Shown here: one piece after another, positions 13,644-17,908 of the stretch
Layout of the letters: the number at the start of each line of letters is the position of its first letter
Position numbering within the stretch: the first letter of the stretch is position 1
From: Catenulispora sp. EB89
Lineage (GTDB): Bacteria; Actinomycetota; Actinomycetes; Streptomycetales; Catenulisporaceae
Assembly (NCBI RefSeq): GCF_041261445.1
Contig: NZ_JBGCCU010000001.1
Span: forward strand, 372,001-436,000
DNA length: 64,000 bases
Direction: 5' to 3'
Program-made: the position numbers and the translations under genes
The notes under the pieces: model-generated
The model's input: the letters and a program-made list of their open reading frames with translations, nothing else
What the model was told of the DNA's origin: nothing
Database searches by the model: none

Positions 13644-13781
13644 CATTGCGGATCATCCTTAACCTGCGCTTTATGTGGCGTGACTAGCCTCGAATGAACC
13701 AGTGGACATCCCGCGTGCCCTCGGTGAGGGCGGCAGGACGTGGCAGCGCTCCGGTCCGGAGCGTGGGGAGGCGGACGGACT

Positions 13782-14951
13782 ATGGCGGCGAGCGCGGCGA
13801 GAGGACATCGTCGTGCGCCCAAGCGCAGAGGTCGGTCCCCGCTGCGGGCCGTCTCCCTGTTCGTCATAAGCACCGCGTTGGTCGTGGGCTCCGGCGTGGC
13901 CTTCGGTTACGCCACGCACCACTTCGGCAACCATCAGAGTGCGGACGACGCCAGCATCGTCCCTCCCCCGACCGGTCCGCTCGCCGGATCCACCGCCGAC
14001 TCCGCGTCGGCCACCGACAACTCGGCCCCCGGCGCGCGGCCGGGCGCGGCCGCGCCCACCACCCCGCGCCCGGCGCCCAAGGCCACCGGCCCGGGCACGG
14101 TGACGACGCTGAACGTGCCGTCGGCGGACGACGACATGAAGACCCGGCCGGTCGACGTCTACCGCCCCGCGGTACCGGCGAACGTGGTGCTGCCGGTGGT
14201 CTACCTGCTGCACGGCGTGCCCGGCGAGCCGGACCGCATGATGGAGGCCGTCAAGGACGTGCTGGACCAGGCGTTCACCTCCGGTGCCGAGGCGCCGTTC
14301 ATCGTGGCGGCGCCCACCGGCGGCGGCAACGCGCACAACGACACCGAGTGGGCGGACGCGCAGGACGGCAAGGACATGGTCGAGTCCTACCTGATCAAGA
14401 ACGTGATACCGGCGGTGGAGGGCAACTCGCCCCGGCCGGCCAGCATGCGCGCGATAGTCGGCTTCTCGATGGGCGGCTACGGCGCGGCCAACCTCGCGCT
14501 GCGGCACCCGGACCTGTTCGACCAGTTCGTCTCGATGGCCGGGTACTTCCACGTCGACGACCCGGACGGGATGTTCGGCTCGGATCCCAAGGTGGAGGCC
14601 GCCAACACGCCGGACGACATGGTGCAGAAGGCGGCCGGCAAGCGGGTGATGCTGCTGGAGGACCAGGACGAGACGGACCCGTTGATCGAGGGTGAGGCCG
14701 CCGAGTTCGCACAGCGGCTGCACGACTGCGCCTGCGGCGTCGATCTGTCCTGGCACCTCGAGCCCGGCGGGCACTCCTACGACTTCGTCACCGGGTCCTT
14801 CCCGAAGGTGATCACGTTCCTGGATCAGGGCTTCACCGCGGGGACCACCGCCGCGCAGTCGCAGGCGCCGTCCCCCGCCGGCCCGAGCGCCACGCCCTCG
14901 GCCGGGGCGTCGTCGGCAGCGGCGGCCGGCGCCACCCCGTCCAGCGGGTGA
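13782..14951 (+). CDS. secreted or membrane-anchored esterase (esterase D/antigen 85-like)
   Basis: A 389-residue protein. A basic N-terminus (GHRRAPKRRGRSP) precedes one hydrophobic helix (AVSLFVISTALVVGSGVAFG, about 24-43), so it is exported and probably anchored. A Ser/Pro/Ala/Thr-rich linker (to about 105) leads to an alpha/beta hydrolase of the esterase PF00756 type: VVYLLHGVPGEPD, the nucleophile elbow GFSMGGYGAA, the acid in LLEDQDETDPL and the catalytic His in PGGHSYDF. The C-terminal 35 residues are again low-complexity Ala/Ser/Pro. GGGGAGG precedes ATG 13782. Substrates may be cell-wall esters; this is inferred. Confidence 0.85.
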   Translation: MAASAARGHRRAPKRRGRSPLRAVSLFVISTALVVGSGVAFGYATHHFGNHQSADDASIVPPPTGPLAGSTADSASATDNSAPGARPGAAAPTTPRPAPKATGPGTVTTLNVPSADDDMKTRPVDVYRPAVPANVVLPVVYLLHGVPGEPDRMMEAVKDVLDQAFTSGAEAPFIVAAPTGGGNAHNDTEWADAQDGKDMVESYLIKNVIPAVEGNSPRPASMRAIVGFSMGGYGAANLALRHPDLFDQFVSMAGYFHVDDPDGMFGSDPKVEAANTPDDMVQKAAGKRVMLLEDQDETDPLIEGEAAEFAQRLHDCACGVDLSWHLEPGGHSYDFVTGSFPKVITFLDQGFTAGTTAAQSQAPSPAGPSATPSAGASSAAAAGATPSSG

Positions 14952-14964
14952 CGCCGAGGCCGGC

Positions 14965-14984
14965 GATGTTTCACGTGAAACATC
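14965..14984. promoter_or_regulatory. parS: parS centromere site (ParB binding)
   Basis: GATGTTTCACGTGAAACATC, a perfect palindrome containing the canonical 16-bp parS TGTTTCACGTGAAACA at 14967-14982. One further base pair on each side also pairs. It lies between two convergent genes. ParB binds such sites, spreads and loads SMC for chromosome segregation. Confidence 0.95.
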
Positions 14985-14996
14985 GTCCCTGTGCGC

Positions 14997-15719
14997 TCAG
15001 TTCTGCTGCTTGGGCTGCGTCGAGGCGTCCTCGTCCAGGCCGAGCATCTGGCGCTCTTCCTTGCTGAGCCGTTCGGTGCCGGTGCGTTCGGCGGGCCCTG
15101 CGGCGCCTGCCGAGGCCGAGGCGGTCGGTGCCGGTGCCTGGGCCTGTGCCGGTGTCGGAGCGGCTGGAGCGGCCGGAGCGGCCGGGTTCTTGTCCACCGG
15201 TGCGGTCGTGGTGATCGCCGGTGCCCGGGAGGTCGTCGCGGCCGTGCCGTACGTGCTCTGATCCGCCGTGTTCGCCGCGGGCCGCTCGACCACCACGGTG
15301 CGTGTCGGCCGGCCGGCCATCATCAGGGAACCGATGATCATCAGCAGTCCGCCGCCGAACGCGTAGGCCACCCCGGTGCCGAGCCCGCGGTTGTCCGCCC
15401 CGGTGATGGTCAGCTCGCCGGCCGCCTGGCCCTGGCGCACCATCCACAGGATCGTGAAGCCGAGCGCGACCACGCCGGCGAAGCCCACCATGGCCCGGGA
15501 GCGCAGCAGCACGCCGGCCACCGCCAGCACCGCCATGACCAGGAAGACCAGGAAGACCGAGTCCATGACCCCGGACCCCGACGGCGTGATCCCGGACCCG
15601 AAGACCTCCCAGAACTTGTAGGTGCTCCCGTGCCGGTTGTTGTACCAGGCCCGCCAAGGACTGAAGAGCGTGGCCGCCGCGCCGATCAGCGCGAGGAGGC
15701 CGCCTAGGACGTTCCGCAT
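14997..15719 (-). CDS. membrane protein of unknown function
   Basis: A 240-residue protein with four probable transmembrane helices in the first 140 residues (NVLGGLLALIGAAATLFSPW; SVFLVFLVMAVLAVAGVLL; MVGFAGVVALGFTILWMV; GVAYAFGGGLLMIIGSLMMA), then a cytoplasmic Ala/Pro-rich tail ending ERLSKEERQMLGLDEDAS. Between helices 1 and 2 is an aromatic loop (WRAWYNNRHGSTYKFWEVFG). This layout is frequent in actinobacterial proteins of unknown function. The start is ATG 15719 with GGAG upstream; the open frame to 16037 runs across the dnaK promoter and is not coding. parS lies just beyond its stop codon. Confidence 0.75.
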   Translation of the reverse strand: MRNVLGGLLALIGAAATLFSPWRAWYNNRHGSTYKFWEVFGSGITPSGSGVMDSVFLVFLVMAVLAVAGVLLRSRAMVGFAGVVALGFTILWMVRQGQAAGELTITGADNRGLGTGVAYAFGGGLLMIIGSLMMAGRPTRTVVVERPAANTADQSTYGTAATTSRAPAITTTAPVDKNPAAPAAPAAPTPAQAQAPAPTASASAGAAGPAERTGTERLSKEERQMLGLDEDASTQPKQQN

Positions 15720-15875
15720 GTTGCAGGCTCCTTCCACCGCCCCCACAGATCGACGGTAAGACGCCGGTCGGTACCGTGCACCTTGACGCAGCGCTCGCGG
15801 GGCCGTCCGGGCGCCATGATCGCCGAAACTTTTTTGTGAGGTTTCGCGCAGGTCAGAACCATTCAGCGCATCAAA

Positions 15876-15896
15876 GTTGAGCGCTGTCCGCGCAAC
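15876..15896. promoter_or_regulatory. HAIR-like HspR site, upstream copy
   Basis: GTTGAGC and GCGCAAC separated by 7 bp, the 7-7-7 spacing of the HspR element CTTGAGT-N7-ACTCAAG but with several changed bases. It lies immediately upstream of the dnaK -35 box. Confidence 0.5.
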
Positions 15897-15899
15897 CTT

Positions 15900-15929
15900 T
15901 TGACTTCGACCCACCGCACCGTGCATCAT
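15900..15929 (+). promoter_or_regulatory. dnaK promoter
   Basis: TTGACT (15900-15905), an 18-bp spacer, and CATCAT (15924-15929); about 95 nt of leader precedes dnaK. HAIR elements flank it on both sides. The whole gap between 15720 and 16030 holds only this regulatory region. Confidence 0.65.
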
Positions 15930-15948
15930 TGAGCGAACTCGACTCAAC
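15928..15948. promoter_or_regulatory. HAIR element (HspR operator) over the dnaK transcription start
   Basis: ATTGAGC and ACTCAAC separated by exactly 7 bp; 11 of 14 consensus positions of CTTGAGT-N7-ACTCAAG. It overlaps the end of the -10 box and the expected start point, a classic repressing position. Confidence 0.8.
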
Positions 15949-16030
15949 CTGCCGCGGGCCTTCCCCACGCAACACGCGACGCACAGCAGACACGTGGCAG
16001 CAACGAAACGTCTTTCGCGGAGGAACCCCC

Positions 16031-17908
<1,878 letters not shown>

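Follow-up and report, generated by a model that had tools for sequence, protein, structure and literature searches.

parS is a highly conserved bacterial DNA motif, and the stretch of Catenulispora sp. EB89 DNA analyzed here (the window; 64,000 nucleotides at C1:372001-436000, the genome comprising 11,900,167 bases on 70 contigs) holds one perfect copy of it between two convergent genes. The questions that this locus raises are whether the site is a genuine chromosomal parS and, if so, why it stands alone. The features that bear on these questions are listed below, with coordinates in the window.

13740..14951, + strand: esterase-type alpha/beta hydrolase gene (PF00756), with its stop 15 bp before the 16-bp parS
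14964..14985, no strand: perfect 22-bp palindrome CGATGTTTCACGTGAAACATCG holding parS, read from the sequence
14967..14982, no strand: canonical symmetric 16-bp parS TGTTTCACGTGAAACA, an exact sequence match
14997..16037, - strand: convergent ORF with no Pfam match and an uncertain true start, with its stop 14 bp past the 16-bp parS
15929..17908, + strand: dnaK ORF (PF00012) beyond the convergent ORF, true start probably later

An earlier note, made from the letters of the window, had described a perfect parS with 22 bp of symmetry between two convergent genes, and both parts of this description hold. The 16-bp site (14967-14982) grows into a 22-bp palindrome (14964-14985) via CGA and TCG on either side, and it is contained in the 45 bp that separate the facing stops of the esterase gene (+, 14951) and the convergent ORF (-, 14997). 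The claim that it is the sole copy in the window was likewise confirmed, with no other match to the 16-mer even at up to three mismatches (mean of 0.03 in 100 shuffles). In the whole genome, exact TGTTTCACGTGAAACA occurs once, at C1:386967, where base composition predicts 0.00013 occurrences, and the window site is also the only copy of the exact symmetric 14-mer GTTTCACGTGAAAC across the 11.9 Mb; 18 copies of a one-base variant are present elsewhere in the genome.

The gene dnaA is located at C1:292642-294141, approximately 93 kb from the window parS, and the only ParB-family match of the genome is found at C1:286370-286912, approximately 100 kb away, with parA and gidB as the neighbors of parB in the main cluster. 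These positions bear out the expectation of the earlier note that the window is origin-proximal. The genome-wide mapping of parS sites against the origin, which it had proposed as a check, gave a divided answer: the site is indeed origin-proximal, and at the same time the perfect copy is a remote outlier from the parAB cluster. The features of a chromosomal parS that we found for this site are the 16-bp consensus, proximity to the origin, a cognate parAB with a parS-class ParB and a conserved position.

Scanning the own genome with the pattern GTTTC[A/C]CG[T/G]GAAAC identified 19 exact sites, of which 18 are mixed and one, the window site, is symmetric; sites with C in both halves (double-C), counted here genome-wide, are absent. 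The mixed site, GTTTCACGGGAAAC, is a broken palindrome in which one half is normal and the other carries an A-to-C change, and both orientations are used. Seventeen of the 18 mixed sites are located in C1:279397-288708 around parAB, i.e., 17 copies in 9.3 kb, while the remaining one, at C1:234717, lies 45 kb from the cluster; six more places differ from the scan pattern by one mismatch. Under random pairing of the 38 halves, the chance of obtaining 18 mixed sites of 19 is 1.5e-4. The parS reading of the earlier note thus stands insofar as the window site is chromosomal-type by sequence, and it fails insofar as it implied an ordinary, symmetric actinomycete parS set, since 17 of the 17 exact sites in the origin cluster are mixed.

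Several further observations concern this region. At C1:594299 (L022:9300), approximately 300 kb from dnaA, the sequence GATGTTTCGCGTGAAACATC differs from parS by one base and has extended outer arms on both sides. A gene for a 16S rRNA A1408 methyltransferase (NpmA family, PF24675; L019:11369-13003) lies inside the parS cluster by parAB. Additionally, parS copies are present inside parB itself, in the own genome (L019:17098) and likewise in the parB of other genomes. In the N-terminal part of parB, parS encodes VSRET in Catenulispora and FHVE in a sister genus with another parS variant; the parS dialect can thus be told from the peptide.

Is this composition a property of one genome or of the genus? 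We compared 14 genomes of the family, namely ten genus members (the own genome, G000, and G005-G013), which are related and whose sites are not independent, and four others. In the order G000, G005-G013, the mixed 14-mer occurs 18, 18, 23, 19, 19, 20, 13, 10, 18 and 21 times, and the symmetric 14-mer 1, 0, 0, 0, 1, 1, 10, 3, 1 and 0 times. G010 and G011 thus keep 10 and 3 symmetric sites, and symmetric sites are therefore tolerated in those genomes. The four family genomes outside the genus have no mixed 14-mer and 1, 1, 0 and 0 symmetric ones. Within the parB regions of the ten genus genomes, to which the double-C count across the genus refers, the 177 sites comprise 164 mixed, 12 symmetric and one double-C. 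In the sister genus, sites of the type GTTCCACGTGGAAC occur near parB at L063, L064 and L065 (G002, G003 and G004), repeated in G003 and G004 and present at least once in G002; GTTCCACGTGGAAC reportedly appears in the parS literature for Pseudomonas, Myxococcus and Xanthomonas.

At the window spot, a parS-like site occupies the syntenic gap in all ten genus genomes, and ParB therefore very probably does nucleate at the window site. The spot is symmetric in three of the ten (G000, G008 and G012), carries the C in the left half in G005 and in the right half in G006, G007 and G013, and has a left half GATTCAC, with a different base altered, in G009, G010 and G011; for G009 and G013, the orientation was taken from reversed matches. 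Judged by these orthologues, the altered half at this spot arose on different sides. The second remote site is mixed and has the same orientation in all ten genus genomes (own C1:234717, L018:9718; in the others L076, L078, L080, L081, L082, L085, L086, L088 and L090), with well conserved flanks that are possibly coding.

The two halves of a mixed site also differ in their surroundings. Among the 164 mixed sites of the ten parB regions, the base adjoining the normal half is T in 151, and the next three outward are A (128), G (111) and C (127); the matching outer bases by the C half are present in 72, 40, 64 and 104, respectively. For comparison, symmetric sites at 75 other named loci (348 in all) have, per half, outer T in 67%, A in 42%, G in 50% and C in 51%. 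The extended normal half ATGTTTCACG is followed by GGAAAC in 126 of 136 cases, and the altered half is therefore itself highly fixed. At locus L181 (G438), the AT flank is present on both sides in three of three mixed sites, which speaks against a general recognition of one half as strong and the other as weak. Conservation of the fourth outer base extends to the C half (the 104 of 164 given above), a further point against the explanation preferred below. The orientations of the mixed sites are divided 94 to 70. The spacings of neighboring sites (41 representative ones) gave a best period of 10.7 bp among the 26 tried, with a nominal Rayleigh z of 8.5; near-helical phasing is only suggested by this value, as the de-duplication across genomes was rough.

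In the alignment of the ten parB regions, both orientations are present in seven of the 28 columns common to at least two genomes, and parsimony requires at least 12 swaps in those seven columns. In two of them, sister species differ within near-identical flanks (27 of 27 flanking bases between G006 and G007 and 35 of 41 between G012 and G013); the best flank identity in the other five is 50-74%, and orthology is less sure there, alignment-based orthology of cluster sites being imperfect. One swap amounts to two substitutions; if these do not occur together, the intermediate is either symmetric or double-C. According to this alignment, the altered base changes halves between species while the site stays mixed.

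Loss and gain of the symmetric state were compared in a three-state model, fitted on a grid, with a null ratio of 2.33 derived from base composition (70% GC). The best loss/gain ratio was approximately 6 for all ten genomes, for which a value of 4 is not rejected either (2dlnL 2.3), 20 with G010 left out, and 80 with G011 left out as well, the omission of these two having been decided after their symmetric counts were known. The null ratio was rejected in each set (2dlnL of 10.7, 27.0 and 34.4, respectively). When the window site was added, with its column taken without G009-G011, in which a different base of the site varies, the ten-genome ratio remained at approximately 6 and the eight-genome ratio fell from 80 to 10; the window site therefore behaves unlike the cluster.

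Could the ParB protein account for the asymmetry? The recognition helix GKSRPHVTNTLRLLTL is common to the ParBs of all ten genus genomes, the commonest helix in the named Streptomyces loci is GRSRPQVSNTLRLLKL, and the sister-genus ParB of G003 and G004 has GRSRAYISNTLRLLRL, unlike that of Catenulispora. The own ParB, aligned to chain 6t1f, which we take to be Caulobacter ParB, has R, T, T and G at positions 173, 179, 184 and 201. This numbering follows the residues in the excerpted text of PMC7383237, according to which R173 and G201 are parS-class residues, Q173 and R201 are those of Noc, and C6 of the Noc site is read by R201. The own ParB has G201 rather than R201, and is therefore without the known residue for reading C6. 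The candidate specificity residues of the Catenulispora ParB are K171, H175, T177 and T184. Nevertheless, T177 is also present in six loci that have symmetric sites alone, and two Kineosporia-type mixed-site loci have the helix GRSRPQISNTIRLLRL, with none of these four residues, for which reasons a single recognition-helix change behind the asymmetry was rejected. Among the ParBs extracted from 94 loci tried, less 13 that lacked a ParB frame or motif (Metallococcus among them), no recognition-helix change common to all mixed-site lineages was found.

Beyond the genus, exact matches to the symmetric and the mixed 14-mer were sought in 256 phylum genomes, and matches to the mixed one in 391 genomes of the order. 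Two order genomes from outside the genus have 4 and 6 mixed sites, the second of them along with 34 symmetric ones, and in the others the count is 0-2. In eight genomes from another family of the order, presumably Streptomyces, the counts are 8-23 for symmetric sites and 0-2 for mixed ones. In the phylum, the symmetric form is present in 171 genomes and the mixed form in 17, and mixed sites exceed symmetric ones in six of the 256: the own genome (18:1) and others with 4:1, 3:0, 2:0, 1:0 and 1:0. Among the best 80 of a longer list of named loci, three show the same excess (Kineosporia sp. R_H_3, an Actinomycetota MAG and Metallococcus carri). The idea that mixed sites are unique to Catenulispora was thus rejected by five other phylum genomes, with 1-4 copies, and these three named loci. 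Small sets of mixed parS were observed at L093, L095, L159, L181 and L183 (Kineosporia-type, Metallococcus carri and two further genomes); such sets outside the genus presumably have independent origins. Two genomes of family f28 (G523 and G621; L184 and L188) have 114 and 110 exact GTTTCACGTGAAAC copies versus 0-23 in the other 254 phylum genomes. Among the places listed for G523, the copies are spread along the chromosome, some of them paired 34-36 bp apart, and this abundant sequence is perhaps the operator of a regulator or a repeat and not parS.

By the sequence features tested, the window site is a real, conserved and origin-proximal parS, ordinary in itself and an outlier in its genus. 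We consider it likely that the site is a genuine remote parS satellite and that the main centromere of the genus has been recoded to a heterotypic array. The presence and uniqueness of the site, its linkage to the origin, its conservation in place and the mixed halves with their swaps between species are observed directly; we infer ParB binding, the strong and weak reading of the halves and the reason for the asymmetry as follows. By analogy with the ParB/parS family, the window parS would be a remote satellite at which ParB dimers load as CTP-dependent sliding clamps, and the main centromere of Catenulispora would have become a dense heterotypic array around parAB. Each heterotypic site combines a normal half GTTTCAC, usually with outer CGAT, and a half GTTTCCC, whose change sits at the position separating parS from the Noc site. 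One ParB subunit may read the strong, extended half and its partner a weaker or differently read half, so that a mixed site would still nucleate ParB yet ease its departure. Many mixed sites in near-helical register would replace fewer strong ones. Double-altered sites hardly ever occur. The window site would have kept or regained two normal halves, perhaps aided by a hairpin between the convergent genes, whose role as a terminator may explain why it stays symmetric. A more demanding version, in which the ParB dimer obligately prefers two different half-sites, homotypic sites are selected out near the origin and clamps are loaded asymmetrically, seems to us possible but doubtful.

Its main rival, in our ranking, invokes GC-biased drift on a neutral plateau: ParB would tolerate one C half and not two, symmetric and mixed sites would be equal in function, and the window site would be one that has not drifted. 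The near absence of double-C sites (1 of 177), the many symmetric sites kept in G010 and G011 and the three symmetric sites of ten at the window spot agree with such drift, and the ten-genome ratio of approximately 6, with 4 not rejected, is modestly above what a GC bias might produce. Nevertheless, the composition-derived null was rejected in all three genome sets, the eight presumed Streptomyces genomes have retained their symmetric sites with at most two mixed ones, and the second half seldom carries any other single change, as the constancy of GGAAAC after the extended normal half indicates. We regard a neutral plateau as a tentative alternative, on the improbable side. If the window palindrome were instead mainly a bidirectional terminator hairpin and its parS match secondary, the short convergent gap would be expected, as would the good folding of the window + strand (-26.4 kcal/mol, z -2.8) and of the orthologous G012 hairpin (-38.4 kcal/mol, z -6.5, stem of 16 pairs). 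However, folding was carried out in five of the ten genomes and the other three loci reached a z of only -1.1 to -2.5, no T-run is visible by eye after the window hairpin, and what the orthologues preserve is the parS core, with one base changed in seven of ten, and not just any stem, which makes a primary terminator quite unlikely.

A restriction enzyme recognizing the central CACGTG could also have purged symmetric sites from the genus, as the A-to-C change abolishes this hexamer. CACGTG, however, shows no clear avoidance across 243 kb of the own genome (55 seen versus 62.2 expected, ratio 0.88; CCCGGG is alike, at 0.85), and this candidate, which we hold to be very improbable, was rejected. 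As a separate observation, CTCGAG is strongly depleted in the 243 kb around the own origin (39 seen versus 124.3 expected), and a restriction system may be the cause. The Noc binding site (NBS) is symmetric, with the sequence ATTTCCCGGGAAAT. That the Catenulispora sites are of this nucleoid occlusion type and not parS at all is an idea favored by the location of the A-to-C change on the base that distinguishes the Noc site, position 6 in the excerpt of PMC7383237. Against it, the genome has one ParB-family match, of parS class, with R173 and G201 and neither Q173 nor R201, the G at position 1 of the sites is retained, and the double-C form that a symmetric NBS would call for is absent from the own genome. 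A Noc-type recoding of ParB was rejected on its parS-class specificity residues, and we give the whole idea hardly any credence.

With the recoded, heterotypic centromere as the preferred reading, Catenulispora, which retains ParB yet has 10-23 rewritten centromere copies and exchanges the altered half between sister species while its sites stay mixed, would offer a natural experiment on why parS is palindromic, how ParB subunits share recognition and how ParB departs from the loading site after clamp closure. In practical terms, a search of such genomes for the exact palindrome would overlook almost all of the centromere and report one remote satellite.

The literature searched, which included few subscription papers and no preprints, contained no case of the asymmetric 16-mer serving a whole genus as a dense centromere code. 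A literature search by sequence returned no matching paper that concerns Catenulispora by its title, and the excerpt of PMC4255298 contains no description of a Catenulispora parS. The 16-mer itself is already in print: the single chromosomal parSc of Thermus thermophilus HB27, TGTTTCCCGTGAAACA, is an asymmetric 16-mer that ParBc binds in EMSA, according to the available portion of PMC4409726, and the excerpt of PMC7022226 has a table entry for the asymmetric parS of this organism. This 16-mer is equal to the Catenulispora mixed site. In Thermus, however, there is one site, whereas in Catenulispora it recurs as the consensus of a dense array found throughout the genus, with an altered half that changes sides, and it is this use that appears new within the literature searched.

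Other known sites resemble the Catenulispora array in part. The Bacillus subtilis parS consensus, TGTTNCACGTGAAACA as quoted in the same portion of PMC4409726, is also an imperfect palindrome with one variable half-site position; nevertheless, the variation falls on another position, which is an N rather than one fixed alternative base. The NBS, as described in the excerpt of PMC7383237, has C at position 6, as does the altered half, but A at position 1, and the Q173 and R201 of Noc are not found in the Catenulispora ParB. A close counterpart of the window site is the canonical parS/ParB system of Streptomyces, which has the identical 16 bp, an origin-proximal location, parA and gidB by parB, and multiple copies. 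The difference lies in the composition and density of the set: the 8-23 symmetric copies of the presumed Streptomyces genomes stand against one symmetric and 18 mixed sites in the own genome, and 3-8 symmetric sites per named Streptomyces parB locus, mostly of 19 kb, against 17 sites in the 9.3 kb of the own cluster.
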